64,000 bases of DNA from Rugalucina vietnamica (lineage: Eukaryota > Mollusca > Bivalvia > Lucinida > Lucinidae), in assembly GCA_964017185.1 (NCBI GenBank), contig OZ024870.1:58096312-58160311 (forward strand), given 5' to 3'. Positions 5,704-61,059 of this stretch are shown piece by piece; the first letter of the stretch is position 1, and every line of letters starts with the position of its first letter. Position numbers and translations under genes: made by a program. Under the pieces are notes generated by a model. It made no database searches and was not told the DNA's origin. It worked only from the letters and a program-made list of their open reading frames with translations.

Positions 5704-6564
5704 TTACTGGTTAACGACATGAAACAAGTCAACTGGCATTGGATACCCAAACAATTTATAATCATTTTCATACAATTTAAAAAGGGCAACCAGTTGCTTT
5801 GCTTGTAAAGTGCTGTAATACGACTCGATTGTTTCTTCTGAGCGTTGGTAAGTATCCTCCCTCTCAGGGAATGATGGTATTTGGTCCTCAACCGCCATTT
5901 CCTTAAGTAAAAGTCTTGTGTCGGTCGCGATCGACTCAAATTTTCCGATGAAATCGTATTGAACGTGACAAGGATTGCAAAGTTCATACACAGGAGTCCA
6001 ATGTTGATCCCACGTTTCTGAACTCATGTTGAATTTGATCAGAAATTGTACAAATTCACTAAAGGTCACATCATTTTCGTAAACAAATGAAGACTGTGAC
6101 GAGTTCTGCCGAAACATCTGAGCTATATGTCGCCCAAACTTCTTTTGGAAATGGTGATTGTTGTTAATAAATTTACTCCTGAAAGCCGACAGTAATCGCA
6201 TTAGTGGCTCTCGTACGAAAACAACTTTTGTATAATTTTTCAGTCTATATTCCCTTTCCTTTGAAGAAAATGAACTTAGTAAAGTGTGTAAATGTGCTCC
6301 GTGTACTGACTCCTTGGTTAGATTTAACGGGTTTGAGACATTTATTCTTCCCGTCAAGAAAAGAAAAATCCGCTTTAAATTTGTGCAAGCAACTTTCGGA
6401 ACGAAGCAATAGATTGTCCTCTGTTTATCATTAACAATTAGATGGTCGAGTGTTAACTGTGAAAGATTCCTGAAGGAGTAACCTTTATCGCGCAATTTCT
6501 GACATTCTCTGCTGAGCTGTGTAGATCGCAGTATCATTTTTGACGCCAATTGGGATGAACTATT
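5704..6564 (-). CDS. Carbohydrate sulfotransferase (CHST11/CHST8-14-like), terminal catalytic exon
   Basis: Encodes the catalytic domain of a Golgi type II membrane sulfotransferase of the HNK-1/chondroitin 4-O family (Sulfotransfer_2), which moves sulfate from PAPS to GalNAc or related sugars. About 286 residues are read from a strong acceptor (TTTCTTATTTCAG, ending at 6565) to TAA at 5704-5706. Seen directly: the 5'-phosphosulfate loop VPKVACTNLKR, the 3'-phosphate site FVREPLMRLLSAFRSKF, the family block HWTPVYELCNPCHVQYDFIGKFE, and the C-terminal YSTLQAKQLVALFKLYENDYKLFGY. These align by eye best with chondroitin 4-O-sulfotransferases. N-glycosylation sequons are present. The reading frame stays open upstream of the acceptor, but that stretch lacks family character, so I place the exon start at the acceptor. 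The N-terminal anchor must lie in an upstream exon. The exact paralogue (CHST11, 12, 9 or 14) cannot be fixed by eye. Confidence 0.9.
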   Translation of the reverse strand, partial: NSSSQLASKMILRSTQLSRECQKLRDKGYSFRNLSQLTLDHLIVNDKQRTIYCFVPKVACTNLKRIFLFLTGRINVSNPLNLTKESVHGAHLHTLLSSFSSKEREYRLKNYTKVVFVREPLMRLLSAFRSKFINNNHHFQKKFGRHIAQMFRQNSSQSSFVYENDVTFSEFVQFLIKFNMSSETWDQHWTPVYELCNPCHVQYDFIGKFESIATDTRLLLKEMAVEDQIPSFPEREDTYQRSEETIESYYSTLQAKQLVALFKLYENDYKLFGYPMPVDLFHVVNQ

Positions 6565-6664
6565 CTGAAATAAGAAAGAAAATATCTTTGAATATGTCTT
6601 GAAAGATAACGTCGATAAGCGCATAATTTGCATGATTATCTTTAAAATGCATCGCATCATATAC

Positions 6665-6742
6665 TGTTTGTAATCGAAAATGTACATTTTCAAGATCAAG
6701 TGATTTAGATGAAACGCCACATCCAGTGTAGAAAACTGATTT
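6665..6742 (-). CDS. Possible upstream small exon of the same sulfotransferase gene
   Basis: A 78-base (26-codon) block on the minus strand lies between an acceptor-like TTTTGTTTTTTGCAG and a donor-like GTATATG. It starts and ends in phase 0 and joins in frame with the catalytic exon at 6564. It would encode KSVFYTGCGVSSKSLDLENV and a few more residues of stem region. The phase agreement is supportive, but the donor is not a strong consensus and the stem region of this family is too variable to recognise. Confidence 0.4.
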
Positions 6743-6844
6743 CTGCAAAAAACAAAATCCCACAATCCCCGATGAAACTGCAAAAACAGTCAATTTCCAC
6801 TTTTCCCACTATTAGTTTACGGAATCGTGAACTTGCCGTAGCAA

Positions 6845-6957
6845 CCCAGCGGGCACATGACGTCAAAATGACGTCATATCAACGTCTATGTGACTTCGTG
6901 ACGTCATATCACATCGACGTCGATACGACGTCATTCTGACGTCATGTGCCTGCTGGG
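6845..6957. mobile_element. Short fold-back element made of TGACGTCA units (copy 2)
   Basis: The ends CCCAGCGGGCACATGACGTC and the reverse complement of CCCAGCAGGCACATGACGTC form terminal inverted repeats of about 20 bp around repeated TGACGTCA and CGACGTCG motifs. It is the same family as 5171-5260. It lies about 100 bp upstream of the last visible exon candidate of the minus-strand gene. Confidence 0.8.
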
Positions 6958-7092
6958 AATAGCTTCATCACCGAGGGAAACCGGTTGTACCGATGTCTGA
7001 GGGTGTTCGCTATCGGAGGTTAACAAAGACTCGCATGCAGAAACAGGGTCTGAATTTATTCATTCTTATCTCATATATTTTACTTCTTGAGA

Positions 7093-7095
<3 letters not shown>

Positions 7096-7145
<50 letters not shown>

Positions 7146-7160
7146 GACAGACAGACAGAG
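7096..7160. repeat. (CA)n followed by (CAGA)n microsatellite
   Basis: About 22 CA dinucleotides (7096-7141) followed by CAGA tetranucleotides to about 7160. Frames through it give TH-rich peptides that are not genes. Confidence 0.95.
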
Positions 7161-7214
7161 AGAACAGGTCGTCTGGACAGAGACTGTTGAGGGCTCGTTG
7201 TGCGTTAAATGTTT

Positions 7215-7950
7215 TAGATCTGTGTCCGCTTTGGGTTTTGTGGTTTCAGATAAGATTTTTTTTTCATGTATTTCCTATAGCAGATAATGGCGCCCCCCGG
7301 GGCGTAGCCTGTATGGACCCTAGGGACATGGTTGACTGGATTTATAAAGCTCTGGGTCTTGTGGTATCGGAGAAGATTTTTATGTTGTTTTTTTTTTCCA
7401 TTGTAAGGCTATGGATTCCGAAGCAAATGAACCCCGTGGAGAGGCCATTTTTGACCCAAGGGACATGATTAGCAGGATATGTAAAGATTCACATAACAAT
7501 GGTGCATACTAAATGTAGAAGCTTTGGGTCTTGTGGTTTCAGAGAAGAAGATTTTTCATGTATTTCCCTTTATAAGCCTATGGCAGATAACGACGCCTCC
7601 GGGCATGGCCTGTATGGACCCCAGGGACATGGTTGGCAAGATTTATAAAGAGGACCACTACAAATTGCTACACACAAAATATGAAAGCTCTGGGCCTTGT
7701 GTTTTCGGAGAAGATTGTTTTAAAGATGTTCCCATTGTAAGTCTATGGGAACTATCTGCTGCCATGAGGACCACAATTTTGATACAATCTGCTTCAAAAC
7801 CTAATGCAGTCAATCCCCCTATCCAGTGATGGTTCACATAAAATTTGATCAAGATTGGCCCACTAGCTTCTGAGATATTCTTCTTTGAAATTGTAAACGG
7901 ACGGACGACGGACGCCTGCCTATCCTATAAGCTCAACTGCGACCTTACAT
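7215..7950 (-). mobile_element. Tandem-unit element, HINE-like, minus orientation
   Basis: Four or so degenerate tandem units carry GCTCTGGGTCTTGTGGTTTC, GAGAAGATTTTT, CCTATGGCAGATAA and GGGACATGGTTG. They are followed at 7895-7940 by ACGGACGACGGACGCCTG and CTATCCTATAAGCTCA, which is the reverse complement of the start signature (GAGCTTATAGGAT...GCGTCCGTC) of the larger HINE-like elements further along. Open frames in the units are short and inconsistent between copies. Confidence 0.6.
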
Positions 7951-8040
7951 CCACTCGGTCATCTCTCTTGAATCCCTCAAAAATAAGTTGTAATTTATGC
8001 TCGTCGATGGAATGCAGCCAAAGAGCAAGGTCTGCGAAAT

Positions 8041-8042
8041 CA

Positions 8043-8080
<38 letters not shown>

Positions 8081-8081
8081 G
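8041..8081. repeat. (ATT)n microsatellite
   Basis: About 13 ATT triplets. The isoleucine or leucine runs in overlapping frames are artefacts of it. Confidence 0.95.
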
Positions 8082-8287
8082 CAGGATTTGCTAATCCATT
8101 ATTTCTGCCATTATTGATTATTTTATAATTTGCATTAATAAACGAGAAAATATATTGGGGTTTTCTAGTATTGAGAGGAACGTCGAAAAAGCTCGATGCA
8201 CGACATTTCATCGAAAATGTGTATTGTATAAAATGTAACTTCAAAAAATTCACCGAAAAATTTTGAGATTTATTCCGTAGAAGACTA

Positions 8288-8448
8288 GCGTCAAAAGATC
8301 GACGAGTCTACTAAGTAGCACGTGATAGGATATTCGGATTGTAACAATATAAATATTTACCATGCGTGAAACCGAAGACTAACGAAAAACTTGAGGCACT
8401 GATTTGCCTTTCACGTGCTACTCCATAGACACATCGATCGCCGATGTT
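8288..8448. mobile_element. Small MITE with GCGTCAAAAGATCGACGAG ends (diverged)
   Basis: The left arm GCGTCAAAAGATCGACGAG...AGCACGTGATAGG is mirrored by CCTTTCACGTGCTACTCC... and a diverged GCGATCG end near 8440. A better preserved copy is at 43328-43500. Confidence 0.6.
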
Positions 8449-9491
8449 GCGTACCACTGCGTAACGCCAAAAAAAGACGTCAATTTACTTCCTTGTAATA
8501 TTTCGACCGGCTTTCAAATGGGTTCGTTTTCCCATTGCAAACAAAAATATTCGCCTTTTAGAATGCTTTAGGTATCTTTTCATCCTTTGTTTTTAACTTC
8601 GTAAAATGACTACATATGAACTAAATAAAAGGACTGTAAGAAGCCTACGATAAGGGTCATTTTATAATAATTTGCGTAGGTCGACCTGGGACGTCATTGA
8701 TGTCGTTTTTGCACGTGTGACATCGTGGCTAGACATTTATATTTTTTTGCTCTAAATCAGCTGCGCATCACAAAACAATAAACTATACATCAACAGACAG
8801 ATTTTGCAAAGGACTTTTACGGACTGGCATTGAAATACATCACCGGCAAAAGTTTAGTCAGTGAAAATACATGTTAAATCCCTTTCGGACAATTTAAATC
8901 GCTATAGCTTCAAAACTCCTCTATAGTTTAGGATTAAAAATACAAATCATAAAACTGTGAATAAAACCTAACATTTCTTACAAAAATGATTGAAATATCG
9001 CACGTGTTTTTGCCATAGTGCATATATCAATTTCCGTTCTTATTTCAAATGAAAGGGAGGTAATCTAAAAGCACTGAATATTTGACTTGTTATTTTGAAT
9101 TTTGAAACGAGCCTTGACGCCTTCATCACCAAATTACTAAAATGTGTTCAAATTTTAACGTTATGTCCGGGGGTCAAAGTACGTTAATTAAATTCTGATT
9201 GACCAGTAGGAAGATAATTTCATTTCTTATTATGTTTGCAATTACTTTTTGTTTTATAATGAAATGGAATAATTTCAGTACAATTACCTATCAAGCCAAA
9301 TTGCCGCTGGATCATTCTACAATAGCTATGTACAAGTTTTAAAACTTATCTTTATAATCAACATAAATTAAAAAGAGTGCATGATTCCTTTACACTTAAA
9401 TAAAGTATAGGACGACGACCAATCTTAACACCCCATCTACAATGCCCGACCAAGTACGAAATCAATGTACAGGCGGCTCGCATTATCACAA
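8449..9491. other. No recognised feature
   Basis: AT-rich DNA of about 1 kb. I find no gene, RNA or repeat family member I can support. Confidence 0.5.
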
Positions 9492-9774
9492 CATTACGAA
9501 AACTTGTCCATGCAATATACAGAGATTTTTTAGCTTAAAAAATTGAAAATTTTTACCTAAAAAAAATGATATTTTTCTTATTTTTGCTCAAAACATAGAT
9601 TGTGGGTACACGTTAGAACCGCCTCGGCGAGGCGGTTCTAACGAGTACCCACAATCTATGTTTTGGAGCAAAAATAAGAAAAATAGGTACATGTATACCT
9701 TTGCAAACCCCAGTTATTCTATATAAAAGTGGGGTTTAAGGGGGTAAACATTGCACGGACAAGTTTTCCTGATG
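9492..9774. mobile_element. Family P palindrome-bearing TIR element, best preserved copy
   Basis: The terminal inverted repeats are CATTACGAAAACTTGTCC and, from the right end, CATCAGGAAAACTTGTCC. At its centre is a nearly perfect palindrome of about 110 bp (9575-9690): TTTTTGCTCAAAACATAG... folds onto ...CTATGTTTTGGAGCAAAAA around the core GCCTCGGCGAGGC. The right side carries CCCC...TATATAAAAGTGGGG, another small inverted repeat. It has no coding capacity. Confidence 0.85.
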
Positions 9775-10492
9775 ACATTGCATAGCTCTAGACTACCGTT
9801 TACGTCGAAAACCGGTCCCAATCTTTTTCCCAATATGTTCTTTGTATTTCAACAGCGCATAACTCACGCTCCGCCCAAATCGACAAAACGGGTAAGTCGA
9901 GATTAGTTCCATTTCCCGGTTGTCAAAGTTTAGTTGATTTTACGATGCATAACTACAATGTACTCATGAAAAGTAGGTCGGCATGCATACATACATACAG
10001 TATTCGATAATTGGTGTTTGGGCGGTCTATCTATTGTTTCAACAAGTTGTTTGAGCTTAACATCTTTAAGCGATCTCAGTTTTCCATTCTTGCTTTCAAT
10101 GGTAAGCTATATCTTCTCATAATTAGCGTCAAAATAAAAAGGTATCCATTTACCAGTGTCGGTCACGATTCCTACATTATAGCTTCTGACGATATACAAT
10201 TTTGATAGCTATGGCACCACGAATTGGTTAACTCGTGATACTGATAACTCGAAGTGATGCTAGGTCCTTTTGATTACGAGTTAAAGACAGTGTGGACTGT
10301 AATTTAAAAAAAAAATGTCCTAAATTGTAAAGATTGAAAATGTTCAGTCGATAAAGTTTGCTATATTTCTCAGTTTTACTCAAAACATAAACTGTGGATA
10401 CACAAAACCCTTGTATCGTTGTGATCCGGTCAAACCCAGTCACTCATTCGCCAATTATATAGGAAAACTCACCCGTAGCGGTTTACAAAAAA

Positions 10493-11675
10493 AAAGGTAC
10501 AAGTAGGCAAAGATCAGGAAAAGGCGCAATCAGAAAAAGACTCCCACTCCAAAAACCAAGGTGGGAAAAAACCAAACTAACAATCAGGCACTTATACCAT
10601 GAAAACACTTCGTAAGCCGAATGAGCAGCTATTTTCCCAATAGGTGGCCACTCAGTTACCTTAACTTAACTAAAAATATGCAAACATACATAAGGCGCCA
10701 ACAGCACAAAAATATTTTAAACACCAAGACATAAAACAAAAAGAACCACCACAGAAGTATCGACTTGGAACGATCAGTAACACAAAGTTACTGGCGGGTT
10801 TAAATCGATTTTACACGGCCGTAACCTCACCCTCACCTTCTGCAGTGGTTCATAACATTTAGTTAGTTCTTCGGTCCTCGTGGTGAATCTCTAACTAGTA
10901 AATGAATCATCAAGAACAAACAAATAAATCATGATAAACATCCTGATGAATCAAAAACCAGGACTCACAGATTCAGTAAGCTGCCCGACGATGGAGATCC
11001 CTGGGCGCCAAATAACTTACTAACTCCGGAGCTAAAGAAAAACATCAGTTGGACCCCGGTGGGCCAAGCAACAGACAAGAAGCTCCGGCCCCAACCAACT
11101 AAAATGAATAGCTTTAAGTCGGGGCCATCATAGAGTCTGACGCCCGACCCACCGGCGTGCAATTAAAGAAGGCAGCATAGTTATCAACCGTGATTGGGTT
11201 AAAAACTAAGCATGCAGACTGTCGCATAACATTCAAGTTATAACCTATACGTCTGTAACGTGTTATGATTTTTCTAAACTGAAAAGAAAAATCATTACTT
11301 CCTATAAGTTTCTTAAATTTGTAAACCAAGTCACCATAAAATTCTGGTTCCGAAAGACCCTCACTTAAAAGCGTCTTTAACCCAACATTATATTTGGAAA
11401 TCAATTCATAGTGTCTACGATAAAATTTAGAAAAAGTTTTTCGAAGTTTATGATACCGATAGCCCTGTTGGAGAAGTTTGGCCGTTAAAGATTTATTTCG
11501 AGCGTTGAAGTCTGTAACATGATTGCAGACTCTAGCAAACCTAATAAGTTGCGAAATGTATACACCATAAGAAGCACGAAGAGGAACGTCACCATCCAAA
11601 AACGGAAAATTTACTATATCAAAATCAAAATCATCGCGCTTATCATAAATTTTACAAAACCACATTCGATCATCA
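10493..11675 (-). mobile_element. 5'-truncated retroelement: reverse-transcriptase C-terminus plus 3' tail
   Basis: The minus-strand frame 11665-11114 encodes about 183 residues beginning in SSKIYDKRDDF-type sequence (here CKIYDKRDDFDFDIVNFPF), with [45 protein letters not shown] and CTPVGRASDSMM. This is the C-terminal part of a reverse-transcriptase ORF common in marine invertebrates. I cannot place the clade (non-LTR or Penelope-like) with certainty. The ORF is followed by a conserved 3' tail ending at CTTTGCCTACTTGTACC (plus-strand reverse complement at 10493). The N-terminal RT palm is absent, so this is a dead, 5'-truncated copy. The same tail recurs at least seven more times in the window. 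Confidence 0.8.
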
Positions 11676-11679
11676 TTAG

Positions 11680-11785
11680 CGCTGGGTTTGTAGTTACGTT
11701 ATGCATAGCCTACCGTCAGTAGTCCTGCAACCTTCGAGATGAGCGGTCGTGTTTATTTATCTCACACCTTTCTGGGATTTAAATC
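11680..11785. repeat. Short repeat shared with 15545-15650
   Basis: GTTACGTTATGCATAGCCTAC...CAGTAGTCCTGCAACC...CGAG is found here and again at about 15553-15605 with few differences. Family not recognised. Confidence 0.6.
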
Positions 11786-11824
11786 ACAATTCTGTTGAAC
11801 ATGTGTTCGCCTATAGAGCACAAT

Positions 11825-11889
11825 GTTTGTTTGTTTATTTGTTTGTTTAGATTGATGCTTTGGTCATGCCAGGACGTTGCCTGCATTTT
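11825..11889 (-). repeat. SINE-like repeat, left fragment (split)
   Basis: A (TTTG)n tract, ATTGATGC, then GGACGTTGCCTGCATTTT. The repeat resumes at 14555 with a GGACTTTAGGATGTTATGA-like block and GCTTGAAATATAACCA. The HINE-like element 11890-14554 is inserted between the two parts. Confidence 0.75.
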
Positions 11890-14554
11890 AGCTCACCTGA
11901 GCCAAAGGTGAGCTTATAGGATAGCCATGCTGCGGCGTCCGTCCGTCCTTCCGACCGTCGTCCACAATTTCAAAGATCTCCTCTGAAACCGCTTGGCCAA
12001 TCAAAGCCAAACTTCCCGTGGAGCAATCTTAGGAAGGGATGAACGAAAGTTTATACAAATGGTTCAGGTCACATGACTAAGATGGCCGCCATGCCCATAT
12101 ATGGTGAAAAACATAAAAAAATCTTTTTCTCTGGAACCAGTGGACCGATTTCAACGAAACTTGGTGTGTATCATAGGGGACTCTGGTCTATGATAGTTTA
12201 ATTAAATCATGACCTTGGGTTGATCTTGACCTATTTTACGGCAAGGTCAATTTTTGTTATACCGGCTTTTCAATGAAAAAAAAAATGAAAACATTGAAAT
12301 TTTCAGAAAGTTTCGTAGCCTGTGACCCGAAAGTTGGTAGATACAGACAACATATTGAGCTAATGAAGTGTTGTGAGTATTAAAGGTCAAGGTCATTTTT
12401 TTACCTTGGCCAAAGGTCATTTACAAATTAAATGTAAAACTTAATTTTCTCAGTAACCGCTTGACCAATCAAAGCCAAATTTTATATGCAGTATTCTTGG
12501 GATAGAGGGATGAAAGTTTATATAAATAGTTAAGATCACATGACCAAGATGGCCGCCCTGAGTATAAATAACAAAAACCTTTTAAACTTTTCTTCTCCAG
12601 AACCAGAAGCCTTACGATTTTGAAACTTGACATGAAGGGGGATGAGCTCTACAAAGTTTTATATAAATCATGGTCCAGGGATGACCTTGACATATCTTAT
12701 GGCAAGGTCAACATAGGGCGCCCATGTATTTGAAAGGGGAAAATTGTCAAAATGTCATTTGAAGGGAAAAGCTTTATGGAAATGGGCAAATGGACTGAAT
12801 ATTTGTGATTCTGAAAACAAATGTATCCCAGGGACAGGTCTGTCCCCACCCCGGGGCAATATACATGTATATTACGATAATATTCAAAGAACCGCTTGGC
12901 CAATCAAAGCCAAACTTCGTGTGGAACATTCTTAGGAAGGGAGAATGAAAGTTTATATGAATAGTCAAGGTCACATGACCAAGATGGCCGCCATGGCCAT
13001 AAATAGCAAAAACCTTTAAAAATCTTCTTCTCCAGAACCAGAAGGCCTATGATTTTGAAATTTGGCATGAAGCATCAGGGAGAGGAGCTCTACAAAGTTT
13101 ATATAAAGTTTATATAAATCATGACCTTGGGATCAGATGACCATGGCCTATTTTATGGCAAGTCCAACATAGGTTGCCCATGCATTTGAATGGAGAAAAT
13201 TAGTAAAATGTAATTAAATGGGAGGAGACTTGCTGGGAGTATGCAAATGGACAGAAGATTTATGTTTATGAAAACAATGTTCTCAAGGGGTTGTCTGCCC
13301 CTGTCCCGGGGCAATATACATGAATATGACCATAATATTCAAACATCTTCTTCTCTGAATCCGCTTTGTCAGTCAAACTCAAACTTTATGTGGAGCATCG
13401 TTAGGAATGGGTAATTAAAGTTTATATAAATGGTTCAGGTCACGTGACCAAGATGGCCACCATGGCTATAAATGGCAAAAACCTTAAAAATGCGGAAATA
13501 CGTCGATCAATTTCGAGGCGATACTACATGAGAAAAATGGGTAATATGGTATTGCCTCGGGCAATATCACCTGCCTCTGGTGAACAAATCGTCATGTCAC
13601 CCTCACTCAAGGGCAACAATTGTATAATATTGGTTGGTTCGTGCTGAACTCATTTTTTTAAGTTTTAAGCCACTCACCCTGTAAAATATGGGTCATGGGT
13701 TCAGTCCAGGGCTTCTGCAGTCCTTCGGTCCGAGACTTTCACAGACAAATGTGTCACTAAGTGGTGGGCACGTGTTGGACTCGTTATAATTTATAAGCCA
13801 CTAGCCTTGTAAAACAAGAGTCGATGGATCAATCCCGGGATTCTCCAGTCACCCTTTTAGAGATTTTAAATCGAGATTCCGTCTCTAAATCACCTTAGTC
13901 TATGAGTGGGTCGTTGACCAACAAATCAAATGAGTATTTGCATTGCAACTTTAGAATTTATTTAATAAATACATGTGTGGTCGACGTAAAGTTAATTAAT
14001 TTATTTTATGTAAGAAGTTTAGAACTTATTTTCATGATTCTGCTGACATGTCAATGTTTATTTTAGTGCAGCTATAAACCAGAAAGTTATCAAAATATTT
14101 TATTTTATTTTTTATTATTATTTTAATCCTCGTAGTGTGTATTTGCTTCATCCGCCAAGTAAAACCAATGAATTTAATTATGCATAATTAGGGAAAAATA
14201 ATTTGTTTGCAGTAGGTGTCCACTGTTTTGCCATCACCGTGTATAAATGTTGGTTATAGACACGATTCAAAATGTGTACTGAGTATCAGATAACCATCTC
14301 TGATCATACATCTTGGTTTGCCAGCGCTTTCTTCTTTGCTCTGTCCCAGAGCATTTTTTACTTGTAAATCTTATTCTTCAGAACCGGAAGAGCTATGATT
14401 TTGAAACTTTGCCTGAAGCATCAGTGAATGGAGCTCTACAAAGTTTGTATACATCATGACTCCGGGATGACCTTGGCCTATTTTATGGCAAGGTCAGCTG
14501 AGGTCGCATATCCAACATCTCAGGTGAGCGTTTATAGGACCATTGGTCCTCTGG
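11890..14554 (+). mobile_element. HINE-like (Helitron2/Helentron-type non-autonomous) element
   Basis: Starts AGCTCACCTGAGCC with a hairpin (AGCTCACCT...AGGTGAGCT) and ends AGGACCATTGGTCCTCTGG, a hairpin followed by CTGG. Between the ends are tandem units of several hundred bases containing TTGGCCAATCAAAGCC, CCAAGATGGCCGCC, TCTTCTTCTCCAGAACC and GACCTTGACCTATTTTA-like segments. It is inserted in a SINE-like repeat so that CATTTT is followed directly by the element and then TATTGGAC, meaning no duplication of the target. It has no ORF of its own. Classification is inferred from terminal hairpins, tandem core and T-run insertion. Confidence 0.75.
13630..13930 (+). repeat. tRNA-Thr-like SINE segments, two in tandem
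   Basis: Two copies of a CCACT..CCTTGTAAAACAAGAGTC block followed by a box-B-like GGATCAATCCCGG / GGGTTCAGTCCAGGG, and a GAGTGGGTCGTTGACCAACAAATCAAA tail. They resemble the tRNA-Thr(TGT)-like part of the SINE at about 56085-56245. They lie inside the HINE-like element. Confidence 0.55.
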
Positions 14555-14625
14555 TATTGGACTTTAGGATGTTATGAGATGCTTGAAATATAACCATCAA
14601 TGTGATTTTAATGTGTATTTGTTTA
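14555..14625 (-). repeat. SINE-like repeat, right fragment (split)
   Basis: Continuation of the repeat that begins at 11825, separated by insertion of the HINE-like element. Confidence 0.7.
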
Positions 14626-14698
14626 TCTAAAATATCGAGGACGGCCATTTTCGTCCTCAAATTTTCGCCGTCTCAACTTCTGTTTTCCTCTAAACATG

Positions 14699-15488
14699 TA
14701 GCGTAAGGCGACCAGTGATCGATCAAGGACCAGTGATCGATCACTAAGTCGTTATCGCCTATTAATTTCCAAAGGATACCTCAATTGAATCTTGTGCTAG
14801 TCTCACCTTAAAGCGCATTATATTACCTTACAAATATTAATTTAAATTTATTTGGAAGCCGTTTCTACCTCGCATTTTCTGGCACTATACGAAGAGGGAG
14901 TCCAAGTTGCACTGCTTAAAAGCGATGATTGTTCACTAAATTCTCCAAGATGAAACGATCTGCATTCGTTCCGATTGCTTAAATGTTTTAACATCACTTC
15001 CTACTAAACAAATCTGATCCACATTCCAAATTGTATAGGATAATGCTGCGACTAATGGACAATTTCTGTGATTTTCGGGCCATTTTATCAACCGTTTTCC
15101 ATTGTTTCTATTGGCGTTTATGCATTTTTACCTCCTCATTTCGTTGCTCCATTTGTTTTAACTCACTGTAAAATTTCCACATTGCGTTTTGTGGCTAGAG
15201 ATAAACAATAATTACACTTTCTAAAAAGTTAGCCAGCGTTTTTAAAAGACAAAGAAGCTGATTGATCACTGGTCCACCTGACCCTAATTCACACTGTATG
15301 ATGGCGGATGTGTTAAAAATGACGTCACTGAGAACGTGACGTGATGACGTCACAAACTGACATATTGTAAAACATGGAGAAGGTTCAAGCTTCAATGTGG
15401 TATGCAATCATGCATTCTCCAATGCATGTCTAATCCCAAAATTTATCAAACATGGCTATCTTGATCGATCACTGGTCCTCTTACGCTA
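14699..15488. mobile_element. Non-autonomous TIR element (about 790 bp)
   Basis: Left end TAGCGTAAGGCGACCAGTGA followed by TCGATCAAG; the right end is the reverse complement of TAGCGTAAGAGGACCAGTGA and TCGATCAAG. GACCAGTGATCGATC and its inverse also recur subterminally (14730-14750, 15260-15280). No coding sequence is recognised inside. Confidence 0.75.
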
Positions 15489-15544
15489 GTATTCTGTATC
15501 TAGTAGTTTTCACCTTAGCCAATTATTTAGGAAAAAACATTTGT

Positions 15545-17085: not shown

Positions 17086-17301
17086 ATGAATAAGTGTAGT
17101 TTTATGTGTGTGCGGAATATGACAGCATATGTGCAAGGTTTTAGACGCAGGTGGCTTAAGGGACCCGTATTGCTTAATGTATTGACATTGTGTGTTTTGA
17201 TATTTTTCTGCATTTTCTGGGCGAATAAATATATGATGGGAATCAACATTTACGTGAAAGGATGTGGAACTGGAACCAGAGACTGTCAGCCATACGTATC
17301 C
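17086..17301 (+). CDS. CHST15: CHST15-like exon 1: cytosolic tail and signal anchor
   Basis: Encodes 72 residues: a short basic cytosolic tail (FRRRWLKGP), a hydrophobic helix [18 protein letters not shown], and the start of the stem. The donor is CC|GTGAGT at 17302, phase 0. A stop codon immediately upstream in frame supports this ATG; a further untranslated exon upstream cannot be excluded. Confidence 0.85.
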
Positions 17302-19678: not shown

Positions 19679-19728
<50 letters not shown>

Positions 19729-28700: not shown

Positions 28701-31700
28701 TTAGAATACATGGTCACTGTTGTAACCCATCGTCATCAGTATTGTATTTGTATGTTTTTTCCATTAATTGATCAAGTACAAACCATTGGTTGTGCTTCGG
28801 ATGACAAAACATCATAAATACACTTATGTGATATTTTTTTTAACTTTCACAAAACTGGATTTCACTATACTAATGTGTATAAATTAGTGATTCAAGAAAG
28901 AAAAAAGTTTTAGATCATTAAAATGCAGCAAGCTAAATAATGTTCCATATAAGTTTTAATCCCACTGCTTCCTTGCTTCAAACTTTATCTCAGAAAGTTA
29001 AGGTGTTCGGTTAGTAAATGCTTTCGCATGATTAATTCTTTATCATGATTTCAGGTTATATTCTGAGTACTACCATGAGTTTGGAAGACTACGGCGAAAT
29101 TTCAACTCGTCACCAGAACATTTCCATGAAGTTGTGGTTTCTGGTTTGAATATGTATAAAGATTGTCTCAAAACCCGAACTCTGCGCAGCTGTGTTTACG
29201 ATGAGAGAATTTATGACAAAACAGTGGTAAGTATTTAACGCATGTAAGACTGGCGTCCCCTTTATGGGACATAGGCAAACAGAACAGCCCCAGATGTGAC
29301 GCCGCAGAATGCTGCGTCCCATCTGGGGCTATTCTGTTTGCATGGGCTACCCATGGCAGAGAAACTGACAAAGTTGTTTCACTGTATGTGGAGGAAGGAG
29401 GCTATCCCACAAGAATTTAAGGATGCATAATCCACCTATACAAGCGGTCAGGAAATCCACAAGTCTGTGACCACCACAGCGGCATTTCCCTCATCAATTG
29501 CTGGGAAGATACTAGCAAAATTCTGTTGAACCGTCTGAATGTTCATCTTGATCAGAAGGGACTTATCCCAGAAAGTCAATGTGGATTTAGATAGGACAGG
29601 GGGCAATAGACATGATCTTCCCAGCGTGACAGCTTCAGGAGAAATGCCCAGAGCAGAATGTACATCTATACATGACGTTTGTCGACCTCACCAATGCGTT
29701 TGACACAGTTAGTCGTGATGGACTCTGGGAAATCATGGCCAAGTTTGGCTGTCCACCCAGATTCATAGCAATGGTGCGGCAATTTCATGATGGCATGCAG
29801 GCACGTGTGCAAAATGATGGAGAGTTCTTTGAACCCTTTGAGGTCAAACAGGGCTGTGTTATGGCACTAACACTGTTCAGCATGACGTTTTCTGCCATTC
29901 TCATGGATGCCTTTTATGACAGTGACACTGGTTTTCCAATCAGGTACCGTTTTGGTGGCAATATATTCAACCTTAGAAGGTTGCAAGCCAAAACTAAGGT
30001 GCTGACTGATGTGCTAGAAGAGCTCCTCTATGCAAATGATATGGATAAGAATGCCAGCTCAGAGGCAAAAATGCAAAGAGCCATGGATCAAGTCTCACAG
30101 TCATGTGATAACTATGATCTCACAATCAGCACATAAAAAAGACAGAGGTTGTACACCAACAAGCACCTGGAAAACCGTACAAAGAACCAACCATCACTGT
30201 GAATGGAGAAAAACTGAAAGCTGTTGATAAATTCACCTACCTGGGAAGCACTCTTTCCAGAGCAGTGCACATTGATGATGAGGTCTTAGCAAGAATTGCA
30301 AAAGCCAGTGTGGCAATCGGAAGACTCCGTGCAAATGTCTGAGAACGAAATGGAATCAAGCTTGACAACAAGCTGAAAGTCTACAAGGCTGTGGTACTTC
30401 CAACCCTCTTGTATGCATGTGAGACCTGGACAGTACACCAGCGCCATGCCCTGTTATAAGAATGCCTGATGAGCGACTTTCAAAGAAAGTCTTCTATGGA
30501 TAACTACAAGAGGGAAAGCGCTCTCAAGGTGGCCAGAAGAAACGCAACAAAGACACCCTGAAAGCCTCTCTGAAGGATTTCGACATACAAATTGGGTCTT
30601 GGGATCAGACTGCACAGGATCGATCAAAGTGGCGAGGTCTCATCAACAAACGAGCAGCTCTCTATGAAAAAAGAGAATCTGTGAAGCTGATAGAAAGCAT
30701 AGAGAACGTAAAGCCAATACCAATGGGCCACCAACTGATTTAATGACATTGACTTGCTCTGATTAGAGCTAGAATTGGCCTTGTCAGCCATCAAGGAACT
30801 CACCAACACACCGCTCAGCACGGTCATCCCTTGGGTTGGAAACTTCCATCTAGAACAGAACACCATATTAGATTCTTTTTCTTGCACAACAACCCCCAAA
30901 ATCTGGTTTATTTCAAGGTTTTGCGTATTTTTTTAGCCTGGGTGAGAACACCTGGGTGAGATGCAATTTTATCACCCAGGCAAAAAGTGTGGCAATTTCT
31001 GTCTGGTGTGCAAGAAAATAAAATATAAAATTTATAGTGAGACTTAAAAGACTCTATAGTGCTGAGCGCCAAGCATCGTAGCCACTGGTATTGTAACAAT
31101 GAATTTCTTTTCTTTCTTTTCTGATACTTAGATCAGCATCCAGCTAGGGATATACTGTGTCTACTGGCAAGAATTGTTTAGAATATTTCCAAGAAAACAA
31201 ATTTTGGCACTGCAGCATACAGAACTACTACACACAGCACGGGTGCAGAATAAAATCTTCGAATTTCTAGATATGGGTACGTACTTACAACATAACACTC
31301 GTTTATGCAATTCCGAAAGGCAGCCACTCAGCCACATTAGACAATCCATGTATCATTACGTAAACATACCCATACAATATACAGAGATTTTTAAAGTTGT
31401 TAAAAATGGAGAAAAAATCAGCAGATTTTTTTTTTCAAAACATAGATCGTGGGTACATAATTAGAACCGCTTCGGCGAGGCGGTTCTAACGAGTACCCAC
31501 AATCTATGTTTTGGAGCAAAAATAAGAAAAATAGGTATACCCCTAAAAACATCAGTTTCACTATATAAAAGTGGGTTATGAGGGGGTAACATTTCACGGA
31601 CGTGTTTTCCTGATATTTTAATGAATTGAAACGGAACGTCACGCCCTGAAACAACATAGTTCGGTGTGGTAACCTTAAGTGCCGGTCCCACAGAATCGTA

Positions 31701-37700: not shown

Positions 37701-40278
37701 GATCCCAGGAAAGGCTGATATCACAGGAGACAAAAGGTGTGTACCCTAGAGACCCCCGCCTAATGTCAAGAGATTGATTATTAAGTACAGTACATGTATT
37801 AATAAACATTCTGTTCTATATTATAGACTTTGGAATTTCAGCTAAGATTGGGAGTTGTGGATTCATTTAACCTTTGAGAAAGAATATGCTAACTCACTCT
37901 TTTACTATGATTTTTCTTATATTTTCTACTTTTATAAACGATCAATGTGAAAAATAAAAGTAGGTCTAAGTGTAGATTAGAGAAAAGGTTTACCTTAATT
38001 TTCTCTTTATTCTTTGTATATATGTTACAGCCAATCTGTGAAATCAGCCTTTTCATGAAATGGCTAAACATTTTAGCCTTTTCGTGAAATGACTAATTCA
38101 CTCAGCCATTTCGTGAAAAGGCTAAATATTTCAGCCTTTTCATGAAATGACTAAAATCTCCATGTCATTGTTACACAGATTGACTGGTTAAGTTTCAGTC
38201 AATCTATGTAATAATGCCTTGAGTTTTATTTATGCCTTTGATATAACAGGAATAATTCATTTGAATGAACCACAAAAATGAATATGATAGTACATAAACT
38301 TCAATTTTCACTTTTAAAGGAATATTGTTGTAGGCATCGGTAATAATACATGTAGTAGTAATAAAGTTAAAGGTAAGTATAATCGTTATGCTTATGAAAA
38401 GCCTTGTCATGAAAGGACTAAACTCTACATGTCATTGTTACACAGATTGACTGGTTAGGTTTCAGTCAATCTATGTAATAATGCCTTGAGTTTTATTTAT
38501 GCCCTGATATAACAGGAATGATTCAGTAAAATCGGTTTAAGCCCGCCAGTAACTTTGTGTTACTGATCGTTCCAAGGCGATACTTCTGTGGTGGTTCTTT
38601 TTGTTTTATGTCTTGGTGTTGAAATTTTTTGTGCTGTTGGCGCCTTATGTATGTTTTCATATTTTTAATTAAGTTAAGGTAACTGAGTGGCCACCTATTG
38701 GGAAAATAGCTGCTCATTCGGCTTACGATATGTTTCATGGTATAAGTGCCTGATTGTTAGTTTGGTTTTTTCCCACCTCGGTTTTTGGAGTGGGAATCTC
38801 TTTCTGATTGCGCCTTTTCCTGATCTTTGCCTACTTGTACCTTTTCATTTGAATGAACCACAAAAATGAATATGATAGTTCATAAACTTCCATTTTCACT
38901 TTTAACAATATATTGTTGTAGGCATCTATAATAATATATGTAGTAGTAATAAAGTTAAAGGTAAGCATAATTGTTATGCTTATGATTATAAGAAAAAAAA
39001 ACACAATAAAAAACAAAGAAGTTTAAACCATTGCTTTGATCATAGTCACGTTAAAGCTAATTAAAGCAAATTTGCAAGCTAATTAAATGCCTGACAATCC
39101 CACTCGACTACCCTTTGATTTGAAGTGGGGGACAATGTTGCTATGGGTTACAGAGGAAGAGGTGACCCACAAAACATTCTTGGTGTTATTCTGGATTGTG
39201 ATGAAAAATAATGTACACTTTTGCTGTCAAGTCTTGAATAATAAGTTCCAAATGTGCAAGGAATCAATTTTATCTGTGTCCAAAAGGTCCTGACTAATTG
39301 TGATGTTAACATGGTATGTACAGTGATACTTCGCAAAGCTGTGAAAGCAACAACTTCAGGAGGTCAAGGTGTATTTTTTATACTTTGCCAAGCTGTGAAA
39401 GCAACAATTTTATGTCAAGATTTTTTTCGATGTGATTGTTAAGGCTGGTAAAATGTATAATAGCAGATGTCATAACACTCTCACATGTAGGAGTAAGTAG
39501 ACAATGTACGTGAGTTAAACTGAACATTATGTGTGGTATTGAAAACATCCACTATTGATACATGTATTGATACATATGTCTTATATTGTGCTATTTTATA
39601 AGTGAATGCTAAGTACATGTATCTCATATTGTGCTTTATTATGTTAGCTGTTTTAACCAATATTCAGAGCTTTAACAGAAATAAACTTCAGTCTTTAGTC
39701 TTGTTTTAAAGGTTAGCTCCTTAGTTTAGCCATTTCATGAAATGACTACAGCAAATTTTTAGTCATTTCATGAAAAGGCTGAAATATTTAGCCATTTTAT
39801 GAAATGGCTGAGTGAATTAGTCATTTCACGAAAAGGCTGAGCTTGAAAAAAGCTTTATAACCTCGGCACCAGGACTTTACCAGCAGCGTGCGATAGTACG
39901 AAAATAGCCCGTCGTTAAGACGGCAGCCTACCTCAAAATAAACTGAAATTCTGAGGAGTATCCAAAATCTATCTTTCAACAAAATCATATTTTGAATAAA
40001 ACAGTAGACCACTTTGTATACTATAGATAAATAAGAATGCAATTCAAAGAGTTTAGTTATTTTCATGAGGTTTTTTGCTGTTTGTATTTACAGATAATTT
40101 ACCACCATCCCTTCGGGCTAAGGATCAAGTTATATATCAGAGACGGCCTGAAGATGCGTCCAAAGGACCAATGATGAATGAAACAAGGGCGCTTTTATAC
40201 AATTTTTATCGACCTTTCAATGAGGAAATGTCTCGTTTATATGGTGACCCAGTGTTTTTATACAAACAAACCATATAG
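17086..40278 (+). CDS. CHST15: CHST15-like gene: GalNAc 4-sulfate 6-O-sulfotransferase, eight recognised coding exons
   Basis: Golgi type II membrane enzyme that, in vertebrates, transfers sulfate from PAPS to C6 of GalNAc 4-sulfate in chondroitin or dermatan sulfate, making the E-type disulfated unit. Exons: 17086-17301, 18142-18435, 19779-19989, 22291-22495 (start uncertain), 23381-23537, 29055-29226, 31132-31276, 40094-40278, totalling about 527 codons (human protein 561). All have GT donors and AG acceptors, and phases agree at every junction except exons 3/4. Seen: signal anchor at residues 27-46, PAPS loop [13 protein letters not shown] near 200-212, 3'-phosphate site FRDPVERLYSEYY, and C-terminal [12 protein letters not shown] with [13 protein letters not shown], all matching CHST15 in order and spacing. 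The start is the first ATG after an in-frame TGA (17083-17085). Introns total over 21 kb and are almost wholly mobile elements. Confidence 0.92.
17416..17815. mobile_element. Family P element remnant, palindrome split by a SINE-like repeat
   Basis: The left palindrome arm (TTCAAAACGTAGATTGTG...AAGAACGGCCGCGTCGA) ends near 17468 and the right arm (AAGGCGGTTCTAACGAGTAC) resumes at about 17785. The SINE-like repeat lies between, that is, at the palindrome centre. Outer ends are not found. Confidence 0.65.
17471..17784 (-). repeat. SINE-like repeat inserted at a palindrome centre
   Basis: Full-length copy reading from (TTTG)n through GGTCATGTCGGGACATTGCC, the GGCAGGCTCGGACC region and CCCATATTCCCACCCGACCA. 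Confidence 0.75.
17820..17995 (+). repeat. SINE-like repeat fragment, opposite orientation
   Basis: GTCGGGTGGGAATATGGGCC to CAAACCACCCCAACG, about half of the family, facing the copy just upstream. Confidence 0.7.
18142..18435 (+). CDS. CHST15: CHST15-like exon 2: stem region
   Basis: 98 codons, phase 0 at both ends, between TTTCTTTTTCAAG and GTGAGTG. It encodes a lysine- and glutamate-rich, low-complexity stem ([20 protein letters not shown]). Poor conservation is normal for the stem; support comes from perfect splice sites and phase. Confidence 0.75.
18447..18714. mobile_element. Family P element, reverse copy, 12 bp past the exon 2 donor
   Basis: Ends CATCAGGATAACATTTCC and the reverse complement of CATTGCGAAAACTTGCCC. 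It contains the CCCCACTTTTACATAGG inverted repeat and a partial, diverged central palindrome (GTACTCGTTAGAACC). Its left end lies only 11 bp after the last exon base. Confidence 0.8.
18773..19058. mobile_element. Family P element, forward copy with intact palindrome
   Basis: Ends CATCACGAAAGCACGCCC and the reverse complement of CATCAGGAAAACATGTTC. The central palindrome TTGCTCAAAACATAGATTG / CAATCTATGTTTTGGATCAA folds around GTCTCGCCGAGGC. Confidence 0.8.
19350..19440 (+). repeat. SINE-like repeat fragment
   Basis: GGGACCTAAAAGATAGATGG, GGCTACTTGTGCCTCCAGGC and ACACTACTGA, the 5' part of the family only. Confidence 0.6.
19676..19732. repeat. (AAAT)n microsatellite
   Basis: Poly-A then about 12 AAAT tetranucleotides. 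Similar tracts occur at 22165-22208 and 28140-28172. Confidence 0.9.
19779..19989 (+). CDS. CHST15: CHST15-like exon 3: PAPS-binding loop
   Basis: 70 codons plus 1 nt (ends in phase 1). Acceptor TTTATATTTACAG, donor GCAA|GTGAGT. It encodes [20 protein letters not shown] followed by [19 protein letters not shown], the start of the sulfotransferase domain and the 5'-phosphosulfate loop, then [16 protein letters not shown], the counterpart of the human KEPHWW segment. Confidence 0.92.
20247..20858. mobile_element. Mariner-type MITE, CAGGGTGTCCC ends (612 bp)
   Basis: CAGGGTGTCCCAAAAAACGT at the left and the reverse complement of CAGGGTGTCCCAAAAAAAAC at the right, with TA on both outer sides (20245-20246, 20859-20860). 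No transposase. Confidence 0.85.
20921..20953. repeat. Poly-T tract
   Basis: Near-continuous T run (with one C) of about 32 bases. The F/K-rich frames over it are artefacts. Confidence 0.9.
21011..21045 (+). CDS. Candidate 35-nt microexon of the CHST15-like gene
   Basis: A block ending GGCTATGACAG before a perfect GTAAGC donor. Entered from exon 3 (phase 1) at the AG at 21009-21010, it stays open and leaves in phase 2, encoding roughly [11 protein letters not shown]. It would fix the phase mismatch between exons 3 and 4 if exon 4 starts at 22305 (after CAGAG). The polypyrimidine tract is weak, so this is a hypothesis only. Confidence 0.28.
21085..21270 (+). mobile_element. HINE-like element, 3' end fragment
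   Basis: Contains GACCTTGGCCTAATTAACG and ends with a slightly diverged terminal hairpin GAGCGTTTACAGGACCAGTT...CTCCAG. The 5' part is missing. Confidence 0.65.
21278..21501. mobile_element. MITE with GAGCCTGTGCATGAGAAAAC ends, copy 1
   Basis: 224 bp. Terminal inverted repeats of about 30 bp: GAGCCTGTGCATGAGAAAAC, then CAACAATTTG; the right end is its reverse complement with one or two changes. No coding sequence. Confidence 0.85.
21787..22020. mobile_element. MITE with GAGCCTGTGCATGAGAAAAC ends, copy 2
   Basis: 234 bp, same family as 21278-21501 but in the opposite internal orientation, with both terminal inverted repeats recognisable. Confidence 0.85.
22291..22495 (+). CDS. CHST15: CHST15-like exon 4: acceptor-sugar region
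   Basis: Encodes about 68 residues with [20 protein letters not shown] and [17 protein letters not shown], matching the human DYLDLFDLAAHQIH segment. The donor ACGG|GTAAGT gives phase 1, which fits exon 5. The start is uncertain: in-frame AGs at 22289-22290 and 22301-22302 give phase 0, whereas exon 3 ends in phase 1. The AG at 22303-22304 would fit a phase 2 microexon. Confidence 0.8.
22512..22695. mobile_element. MITE fragment, same family as 21278-21501
   Basis: A diverged left end (GAGCCGCGACGAGAGAAAAC) and the interior TTGAAATATCGGATTTAAG; the right end is missing where retroelement tail sequence starts. It begins 17 bp after the exon 4 donor. Confidence 0.7.
22700..23313 (+). mobile_element. 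Retroelement 3' tail, forward copy
   Basis: Non-coding tail of the family whose RT part is at 11114-11665: CTTGTCTGTTGCTTGGCCCA, CCGGGGTCCAACTGGTG, ATTCACCACGAGGACCGA, TGCTGTTGGCGCCTTATG, ending TTTGCCTACTTGTACC. It ends only about 67 bp before the exon 5 acceptor. Confidence 0.8.
23381..23537 (+). CDS. CHST15: CHST15-like exon 5: core and 3'-phosphate site
   Basis: Enters in phase 1 (GCCATTTCAG acceptor) and leaves in phase 2 (AAAG|GTATGT). It encodes [34 protein letters not shown] and [18 protein letters not shown] is the 3'-phosphate-binding motif, and the arginine codon is completed in exon 6. Confidence 0.93.
24035..24960 (-). mobile_element. Retroelement 3' tail with a remnant of the RT C-terminus, reverse copy
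   Basis: Runs from the CGATCAGGAAAAGGCGCAAT end through the CCGGTGGGCCAAGCAACAGA and GCCCGACCCACCGGCGTGCA blocks into a decayed version of the RT C-terminal region (AATTCTGGTTCCGAAAGGCC at 24849). Coding potential is lost. Confidence 0.75.
25150..25513 (+). mobile_element. Retroelement 3' tail, forward copy
   Basis: GAACCACTGCAGAAGCTGAG-like start to TTTGCCTACTTGTACC. A further scrap of the same end lies at 25598-25637. Confidence 0.75.
25715..25774 (-). mobile_element. Retroelement tail, left part (split by a rolling-circle-like element)
   Basis: GGTAAAAGTAGGCAATGATC to AATTCCCACTACAATA. The family consensus continues at 27232 with AAAAACGATGTGGGG and the CGTAAGCTGAGTGAACAGC region. Confidence 0.7.
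25775..27231. mobile_element. Tandem-core element with terminal hairpins (second HINE-like family)
   Basis: Starts AGAGCTGTCGCAGGACAGCG (hairpin GCTGTC..GACAGC) and ends TGCACTTCGTGCAGGCGAGCC (hairpin TGCAC..GTGCA). The interior has units of about 120-150 bp: CTTGACCTCAAGGTC with CAACATGCAAAGTATCAAC, then three to four units of GAGCACGAAATATAGGTCAA with GTTGATGAGATATTAAG. It is split by a retroelement tail at 26131-26414. Its flanks are the two halves of another copy of that tail family. Confidence 0.7.
26131..26414 (+). mobile_element. Retroelement 3' tail inserted in the 25775-27231 element
   Basis: CTGATCGTTCCAAGTCGATA to TTTGCCTACTTGTATC. The host element's AGAGATATAGACT continues as TAAAAACTTTAACC after it. 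Confidence 0.75.
27232..27790 (-). mobile_element. Retroelement tail, right part, diverged
   Basis: Continues the copy begun at 25715: AACAGC..., CCACTCAGTTAC, AAGAACCACCACAGAAGTAT, CTCACCCTCAGC, GGTCCTCGTGG, ATCATGAAGGACAAACAAAT. It has one unrelated stretch near 27430-27590. Confidence 0.6.
27950..28010 (+). promoter_or_regulatory. TATA-box-like core promoter sequence in a CHST15-like intron
   Basis: GGGGTATAAAAGGCC at 27953-27967 is a textbook TATA context, followed about 25-30 bp later by TCATTC (Inr-like) and a pyrimidine run. No downstream coding exon is recognised. It could be part of an unrecognised mobile element or chance. Confidence 0.3.
28140..29054. other. Intronic AT-rich DNA, no gene
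   Basis: An (AAAT)n tract at 28142-28170 and otherwise no recognised repeat up to the exon 6 acceptor. Confidence 0.5.
29055..29226 (+). CDS. CHST15: CHST15-like exon 6
   Basis: Phase 2 in (ATGATTTCAG acceptor), phase 0 out (CAGTG|GTAAGT). Encodes [36 protein letters not shown] and [14 protein letters not shown], aligning with human LYSDYLYFASSNKSADDFHE and RACVYNN. Confidence 0.93.
29272..29342. repeat. Hairpin: 27-bp imperfect inverted repeat
   Basis: GCAAACAGAACAGCCCCAGA and AGACGC-type flank pair with TCTGGGGCTATTCTGTTTGC around CGCAGAATGCTGCG, itself palindromic. It begins about 45 bp after the exon 6 donor. It may be the end of a fold-back element; family not recognised. Confidence 0.7.
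29380..30895 (+). mobile_element. Degraded LINE reverse transcriptase (RTE-like, tentative) with C-terminal zinc-finger remnant
   Basis: Fragments of one ORF in order: [90 protein letters not shown] at the catalytic box, where YADD is expected, so the second acidic position is altered; [52 protein letters not shown]; then after an internal deletion [26 protein letters not shown], and a MTLTCS...[16 protein letters not shown] finger-like end. It contains many stops and frameshifts and is clearly dead. It lies wholly in the intron between exons 6 and 7, in the gene's sense orientation. Confidence 0.85.
30936..30987. repeat. Small inverted repeat GCCTGGGTGA / TCACCCAGGC
   Basis: 10-bp arms with an additional internal CCTGGGTGAG, shortly downstream of the LINE. 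Confidence 0.55.
31132..31276 (+). CDS. CHST15: CHST15-like exon 7
   Basis: Phase 0 in (TTTTCTGATACTTAG acceptor), phase 1 out (TATGG|GTACGT). Encodes [39 protein letters not shown] and [10 protein letters not shown], matching human QVGLYAVYLLDWLSVF and HKVFQFLNLG. Confidence 0.92.
31354..31615. mobile_element. Family P element with intact palindrome
   Basis: Ends CATTACGTAAACATACCC and the reverse complement of ATCAGGAAAACACGTCCG. The palindrome AAAACATAGATCGTGGGTAC / GTACCCACAATCTATGTTTT folds around GCTTCGGCGAGGC. It starts 77 bp after exon 7. Confidence 0.8.
31836..32045. repeat. C/A homopolymer tract and degenerate TCCTATATTTT repeats
   Basis: A C-run then A-rich tract at 31838-31880, followed at 31922-32040 by about eight loosely spaced TCCTATATTT motifs. 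Confidence 0.7.
32312..34830 (+). mobile_element. HINE-like element with about 450 bp tandem units
   Basis: Starts AGCTCACCTAAGCCGAAGG and has a terminal-like AGTGAGCGTTAACAGGACCA ATGG at about 34807-34830, after which more unit-like sequence runs to 35054. Five or more tandem units each carry AAAGATCTTCTTCTCTGAAA, TTGGCCAATCAAA, GACCAAGATGGCCGCC, TCTCCAGAACCGG, ATGACCTTGAC and ATTGCAGCCTGAG. No consistent ORF. Sits in the intron between exons 7 and 8. Confidence 0.75.
35055..37640 (+). mobile_element. HINE-like element with about 450 bp tandem units, second copy
   Basis: Starts AGCTCACCTGAGCCGAAGG preceded by TTTTT and ends CAGGACCAATGGTCCTCTG followed by a T-run, consistent with T-run insertion. 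Contains about five units of the same type as 32312-34830. Confidence 0.8.
38150..38990. repeat. Tandem duplication of about 255 bp, second copy carrying an insertion
   Basis: Copy 1 (38150-38405) and copy 2 (38406-38990) both contain CATGTCATTGTTACACAGAT, TTCAGTCAATCTATGTAATA, GATATAACAGGAAT, AATGAACCACAAAAATGAAT and TAAAGTTAAAGGTAAG. Copy 2 is interrupted by the retroelement tail 38525-38843. Confidence 0.85.
38525..38843 (+). mobile_element. Retroelement 3' tail with empty site next door
   Basis: GTAAAATCGGTTTAAGCC to TTTGCCTACTTGTACCTT, flanked by TTCA on both sides. The neighbouring duplicate copy has a single TTCA at the corresponding place (38257-38260), so the insertion and its 4-bp duplication can be read directly. 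Confidence 0.88.
40094..40278 (+). CDS. CHST15: CHST15-like exon 8 (terminal)
   Basis: Phase 1 in (TTGTATTTACAG acceptor). Encodes [40 protein letters not shown] and [20 protein letters not shown], then TAG. It matches the human C-terminus (ARRPEDRNLGPM, DFYRPFNARLAQVL). A HINE-like element starts 17 bp after the stop, so the 3' untranslated region must be largely mobile-element sequence; an ATTAAA occurs near 40711. Confidence 0.94.
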
Positions 40279-53117: not shown

Positions 53118-53418
53118 CATTTGGTGTCAGAGGAGTGGAATACTAGCTATTGAAACAGAAAATTGTATGTGGAACCAAAAATAAGCAACACATATTTTGA
53201 TAATTTTATTTCACAGTTTATTCAAAACAAAGATATTTCAGGATGTCAATATAATTCCAACTTGTTTTGTGACGTCACTAAACTTGTTGAGTTCCAGTTG
53301 GATTTCCCTTGTTGTTGGAAATTTGACAACCTGAAAATATAAAAGATAAATTTTGTTATAAATCCACATTGTAAATCCTGGTTTTGGTCACAGCTAGTGT
53401 GTAGTGATACTAAACAAA

Positions 53419-54930: not shown

Positions 54931-55001
54931 TAAGCCGGCCTGAAAAGATAGCACTTAGAAATATGGAAGAAGGATACTTTGTACCAGCTCGTATTAGAAA
55001 A

Positions 55002-57145: not shown

Positions 57146-57499
57146 TTTTCGAATACACCGTTTCCATAGGTTGAGTATATGAGCCGGTGGAAACAGAAAC
57201 TTTTGAGAGAGTAAATTCCCTTGGTACAGAGAGCATTGCAAATGATGATACCCAAAATAATGATACCTCACACATTGAAGATTTGATTGCTCGTAGCTCT
57301 GAAAACCTTTCTGTGTCGCAAGCAGAAAAGATGGCTGCTCTATTGCGTGCATTTAAAGATATATTTTCACGATCTTCGCACGACCTCGGTTCTTCTGGGT
57401 TAGCAGAACACACCATTAGAACAGAACCAAACTGTAAACCTTGTGTACCAAAGACCATATTGAATTCCATTACCAAAGCAAGAATTTGCCAGAAAAGAA

Positions 57500-61058: not shown

Positions 61059-61059
61059 A

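Follow-up and report, generated by a model that had tools for sequence, protein, structure and literature searches.

The locus at C2:58096312-58160311, a stretch of 64,000 nucleotides called the window below, in a genome of 1.09 Gb in 47 contigs, raises the question whether two neighbouring, divergently oriented sulfotransferase genes of different families are partners in one pathway, and whether this pathway leads to chondroitin sulfate E, as a preliminary description of this DNA had proposed. The genes of animal glycan sulfation pathways usually are scattered.

Both enzymes of that proposal are present. The minus strand encodes a PF03567 enzyme (5704-16810, E 3.5e-53), whose model of two coding exons and 317 aa covers the profile in full and contains both PAPS loops, and the plus strand encodes a CHST15-like enzyme (17086-40278; PF13469, E 3.6e-11; PF00685, E 9.5e-08), whose eight exons are joined by GT-AG introns of fitting phase into a protein of 507 aa that matches Sulfotransfer_3 and Sulfotransfer_1 and, in the PDB, NDST-1 and 3-OST. 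Both gene models are predicted, their splice sites having been placed by the GT-AG rule, phase and paralogue conservation. A PDB sequence search with the minus-strand ORF gave only weak matches, to the upstream non-coding part of the ORF. The distance of about 10 kb given earlier between the two genes turned out to be the intron of the minus-strand gene: because the first coding exon of this gene, 93 bp long, lies at the far side of this intron (Table 1), the two start codons stand head to head with only 275 bp between them. This exon was the single candidate in the upstream scan in which a start codon and a strongly hydrophobic stretch come together with a phase-0 GTAAGT donor. A search of the 260 kb around the window with the two protein sequences found the same arrangement three times at C2:58.01-58.14 Mb, the window holding one copy; all three units of this array are divergent, and in none does the gap between the start codons reach 1 kb (305 bp in unit 1 and 266 bp in unit 2).

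Table 1. Features of the gene pair in the window (window positions) and HtrL_YibB genes near the pair loci (genome coordinates)
Feature	Position	Strand	Basis
PF03567 gene, coding exon 2 (catalytic domain, incl. stop codon)	5704..6564	-	PF03567 match over whole profile; acceptor 6565; conserved in units 1 and 2
PF03567 gene, intron with repeat-like sequence inside	6565..16717	-	gene model; repeat matches
PF03567 gene, coding exon 1 (start codon, membrane/signal anchor)	16718..16810	-	scan; conserved in units 1 and 2, C11, C2:20.29
Intergenic region between start codons, probable bidirectional promoter (predicted)	16811..17085	.	275 bp; alignments
CHST15-like gene, exon 1 (start codon, membrane anchor)	17086..17301	+	homologues at C2:20.36, C11:48.517
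CHST15-like gene, exon 2 (stem)	18142..18435	+	gene model
CHST15-like gene, exon 3 (5'-PAPS loop KKSGTT, KEQQWFAV motif)	19779..19989	+	gene model, motif alignment
CHST15-like gene, exon 4	22352..22495	+	gene model
CHST15-like gene, exon 5 (3'-PAPS region FRDPVER)	23381..23537	+	gene model, motif
CHST15-like gene, exon 6	29055..29226	+	gene model
CHST15-like gene, exon 7	31132..31276	+	gene model
CHST15-like gene, exon 8 (gate loop RRPED, incl. stop codon)	40094..40278	+	gene model, motif
HtrL_YibB gene at array	C2:57964640-57965626	-	
HtrL_YibB gene at array	C2:57980632-57981687	+	
HtrL_YibB gene at array	C2:58171863-58172954	+	
HtrL_YibB gene at other pair locus	C2:20258470		
HtrL_YibB gene at other pair locus	C2:20337589		
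HtrL_YibB gene at other pair locus	C11:48691914		

An ORF of 194 aa at 11.1-11.7 kb, considered as a second host gene inside the minus-strand intron, was rejected; it has no Pfam match above the cut-off and resembles a repeat at 24.7 kb. An intron of the plus-strand gene contains a reverse-transcriptase fragment (29630-30136, plus strand; PF00078, E 2.4e-11), and a retroelement whose gag-like, reverse transcriptase and integrase-like ORFs are distributed over several frames occupies 53398-61059 (plus strand), including a predicted tRNA-Asp(gtc) at 56004-56082 (plus strand), which may be false or derived from the element. Long imperfect tandem arrays, with units of the GCAGAATGG and TTGGTGCACACCATC type, lie at 1-1700 and 52246-52766 of the window.

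The linkage of the two families is older than the array. Outside the array, the closest PF03567 relatives among the best eight loci compared at sequence level are L002 (C2:20.298 Mb, 75%) and L007 (C11:48.524 Mb, 76%), followed by L001 with 48%; the completeness of this clade rests on the Pfam match list together with the sequences of those eight loci. The CHST15-like genes closest to the array, among the matches listed, are found at C2:20.360-20.388 and C11:48.480-48.518 (exon 3, 81 and 79%; the next 64%), and in a tree of 19 exon-3 rows they form a clade with the window copy (support 97/99). As the nearest relatives found for both genes lie at the same two loci, the linkage of the pair is non-random and old. 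At C11 the pair again stands head to head, with start codons 4,054 bp apart; 1,430 bp of this gap match at least two places in the 260 kb around the window, which suggests later insertions. The first CHST15-like exon at C11 was missed by the full-length query and was recovered in the locus sequence and with a shorter query. At C2:20.3 Mb both genes lie on the plus strand with start codons 69.5 kb apart, so close divergent order has not been kept everywhere; a rearrangement may have broken it there. A divergent spacing below 1 kb was found at neither of these two loci. Two unrelated sulfotransferase families are thus linked, divergent and co-duplicated, a stronger result than the one put forward initially, and the accompanying remark that duplication plays no part is right for the origin of the pair, which duplication did not create, and wrong for its later history, in which block duplication copied the whole pair.

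A third family accompanies the pair. ORFs flanking the array match HtrL_YibB (PF09612; one at E 3.8e-11), and six of the 16 genome matches listed for this domain are found no more than 200 kb from one of the three pair loci (Table 1). All three pair loci have such a gene within that distance, an outcome reached in none of 200,000 random placements by a test chosen after the fact; the distance never exceeds 170 kb, the gene at C11 being 167 kb away. Identity amounts to 83-86% within the array, 78-82% to a C2:20 copy and 69-70% to the C11 copy, against 44-45% to a copy on C12, and since the copies at the three loci, like those of the other two genes, are far closer to one another than to the outgroup, the ancestral block probably held three families. 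A thresholded scan revealed no anchor exon for two of the HtrL copies at C2:58; for the third, the sole first-exon candidate on its strand is an orphan PF03567 anchor exon (C2:58168168), and we would guess that the two are spliced together. This exon is part of an orphan copy in inverted orientation, which comprises the PF03567 promoter together with the anchor exon (C2:58167973-58168260) and has the HtrL exon 3.7 kb downstream; neither a matching catalytic exon nor a CHST15-like gene was found within the 22 kb examined beyond it. An intronless Sulfotransfer_1 gene, 3-OST-like by eye, lies about 70 kb from the array (C2:57942122-57943327, minus strand).

On the scale of the genome, five of the 26 CHST15-like clusters scored have a PF03567 cluster no more than 100 kb away, where random placement gives a mean of 0.33 and none of 10,000 placements reaches five. 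When the window's own clade, with its three loci, is set aside, two of 23 remain against 0.29 expected (327 of 10,000 placements reach two), so one co-duplicated block accounts for most of the signal; the two cases outside it are C16:17.2 Mb and C14:51.1 Mb. These counts derive from at least 87 CHST15-like matches (85 of 182 candidates scored), grouped by hand into 35 positions and 26 clusters, and from 102 PF03567 matches grouped by hand into 60 clusters, both match lists being lower bounds, and the placements used estimated lengths for C8, C13 and C17. It could be argued that the linkage is without functional meaning, a chance neighbourhood copied by segmental and tandem duplication, with the genes regulated and acting independently. 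The weak excess outside the window's clade and the loss of divergent order at C2:20.3 Mb fit such a view, as does the size of the two families, which by itself favours neighbours. However, C11 retains divergent order despite a divergence of 24% in amino acids between the PF03567 genes, and three enzyme families have remained linked at all three loci; we regard a meaningless linkage as unlikely.

With regard to the product, a study of Erpetoichthys CHST15 names K126, T130, R148 and H151 as catalytic, with H151 as the proposed general base and H151A inactive, and R155, R162 and R329 as anchors of CS-A, R155 being the largest binding term; R148K retains more than half of the activity (PMC11784081). 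The locus C11:17.15 fits this numbering, with KSGTT followed by KEPHWIAR at +18 to +25. All three array copies have K126 and T130 (KKSGTT) as well as R396, R397, E399 and D400 of the gate loop (RRPED), and the place of R148 is basic, being the Lys of KEQQW. The window protein and both sister copies read KEQQWFAV, in which Lys and Glu are kept, Gln occupies the place of His151 and Val that of Arg155. At the places of Arg162 and Arg329, mapped via a provisional human sequence, the window protein appears to have Ala and Ser. His151 is kept in four of the 18 exon-3 rows that reach this place, all four also keeping Arg155 and all falling outside the window's subfamily, of whose ten exon-3 rows none has the His and three have Arg at 155. 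Of the 26 CHST15-like places examined, six are without a motif row (L054, L056, L059, L060, L065, L072); L073 was omitted from the exon-3 alignment and L066 (C14) from the tree, and the rows C14 and C16_17.248 stop short of the His place. An exact DNA pattern for KEPHWW had no match in the genome, while KEPHWI exists. It should also be noted that NDST-1, an active sulfotransferase, has Gln at the place aligned to His151, so a loss of activity does not follow from this residue. In NDST and 3-OST the neighbouring Glu is the base, and this Glu is retained in the window protein; judged by its motifs, the enzyme likely has a changed base and acceptor.

The PF03567 partner is 36% identical to CHST11, 39% to CHST12, 36% to CHST14 and 31% to CHST10, provisional human sequences serving as comparators. 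In a PF03567 tree of 12 rows, four of them these human sequences, the window genes group with L001 (80/80), while no clear branching relative to CHST10, 11, 12 and 14 emerges; given the nearly equal distances to CHST11, CHST12 and CHST14, the designation as a chondroitin 4-O-sulfotransferase is unproven. A true chondroitin sulfate E pair, in which a chondroitin 4-O-sulfotransferase would be followed by GalNAc4S-6ST (CHST15), draws on the family membership of both enzymes, on the conservation of K126, T130 and the RRPED gate loop, on the Arg at 155 in part of the subfamily and on the Gln of NDST-1. Against it stand the replacements of His151 and Arg155 in all three array copies, the first at a residue whose exchange for Ala abolished activity in the Erpetoichthys enzyme, and the PF03567 partner, which with those provisional comparators is not placed inside C4ST; moreover, the four rows with both His and Arg155 are better CHST15 candidates, for example at C16:17.27 Mb. 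The two replacements weaken the chondroitin sulfate E reading and leave the original assignment unsupported, and the motif comparison makes such a pair quite improbable at this locus. At C16:17242358-17274681, two PF03567 genes each have a same-strand CHST15-like exon 3 about 5 kb downstream. One of these exons reads KEPHWIAR and retains both His and Arg, the other ends before that place; by its motif, this locus is a more promising place for a chondroitin sulfate E pair.

The frames of all three units are open, with dS of 0.045-0.063 and dN/dS of 0.35-0.63, which shows only mild constraint among these recent copies. Differences at 4.6-9.8% of the aligned sites between the start codons mean that this stretch is no more conserved than synonymous sites. 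In unit 1 the canonical acceptor of exon 2 is lost, with an in-frame acceptor 9 nt downstream, and an extra, damaged anchor exon is present; unit 2 has a spare exon 3 at C2:58081819-58082029, which reads GTM for GTT (Met replaces the second Thr in the PAPS loop) and whose stretch of last codons is shifted. Intergenic indels also differ between the units. That two haplotypes were assembled one after the other, making the tandem units partly an artefact of assembly, is very improbable: a dS of about 0.05 is low, but the copies number three rather than two and carry the unit-specific indels, spare and second exons and lost acceptor just described, and such an artefact would leave the loci at C11 and C2:20 untouched.

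The DNA adjoining the PF03567 anchor exon is common to six places, namely the three units, C11, C2:20.29 and the inverted orphan copy at C2:58.168, while matches to the intergenic half adjoining the CHST15-like exon were limited to the three units. The simplest reading of these alignments would be that the PF03567 promoter is old and that the CHST15-like gene lies very close to it in the array, and the intergenic stretch of the window probably acts as a bidirectional promoter; the true start sites could lie elsewhere, via upstream non-coding exons. A scan for bacterial-type promoters returned nothing useful.

Taken together, we favour, with somewhat better than even confidence, the reading of a divergent, co-duplicated and co-regulated pair of Golgi-type enzymes that sulfate one glycan with diverged specificity, the product probably not being classical chondroitin sulfate E. 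The partners would be type II membrane PAPS sulfotransferases, the first from the HNK-1ST/C4ST/D4ST family (PF03567), the second from a subfamily related to CHST15. Their gene clades, together with an HtrL_YibB gene, would have come to occupy three chromosomal loci by block duplication before the pair was tandemly triplicated at C2:58. Shared transcription from the 275 bp would place both enzymes in the same cells, where they may act one after the other on the same glycan, first the PF03567 enzyme, probably at O-4 of a GalNAc-type sugar, and then the CHST15-like enzyme, whose changed active site and acceptor pocket would probably yield something other than classical chondroitin sulfate E. Beside the observed anatomy, copies, linkage and residue changes, shared regulation and a common substrate of the pair are plausible from the sequence. 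A wider proposal is possible but doubtful as a whole: an animal glycan cluster in which a PF03567 enzyme, a His-less CHST15-related enzyme and HtrL_YibB would travel together by block duplication, share a bidirectional promoter (one copy perhaps with the same promoter and anchor exon) and jointly build an undescribed sulfated glycan. A head-to-head pair from two unrelated sulfotransferase families that is copied together with a third, glycan-linked family would allow the partners in a sulfation pathway to be read from the genome, and it offers a concrete enzyme set for acidic glycans. General caution is due in any case with the label "CHST15-like", which does not equal chondroitin sulfate E synthesis, the catalytic His being absent from 14 of the 18 exon-3 rows compared. 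In the open-access literature searched, we found no paper on a head-to-head CHST-type pair, no linkage of CHST11 and CHST15 and no HtrL_YibB gene beside sulfotransferases.

Compared with known systems, the minus-strand enzyme shares with the C4ST/D4ST/HNK-1ST family (CHST8-14) the whole PF03567 domain, the PKVACTNLKR and VREPLMRLLSAFR loops and the type II anchor, yet is only 31-39% identical to four human members used as provisional comparators. The plus-strand enzyme shares with CHST15/GalNAc4S-6ST of Erpetoichthys the Sulfotransfer_1/3 fold family, K126, T130, a basic residue (Lys) at R148, RRPED and its nature as a type II membrane protein, but has Gln for His151 and Val for Arg155 and belongs to a subfamily of ten exon-3 rows without the His (PMC11784081). 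Expanded CHST11- and D4ST1-type genes are also described for the pearl oyster Pinctada, where the authors link the expanded sulfotransferases to acidic glycosaminoglycans in nacre; the excerpt available names no CHST15 linkage, pair or cluster (PMC5597905). Bacterial HtrL_YibB members, uncharacterised and tied to LPS/LOS loci according to PMC4172580, likewise lie near other genes of glycan building, whereas here the family is found on a eukaryotic chromosome beside sulfotransferases. A passage in a C. elegans paper, according to which the domain occurs outside nematodes only in bacterial HtrL (PMC8989417), is spoken against by the 16 matches in the present genome. Finally, known head-to-head pairs with a bidirectional promoter also have start codons that diverge across less than 1 kb and act in related pathways, whereas the candidate pair described here is tandemly triplicated and unites partners from two unrelated sulfotransferase families.
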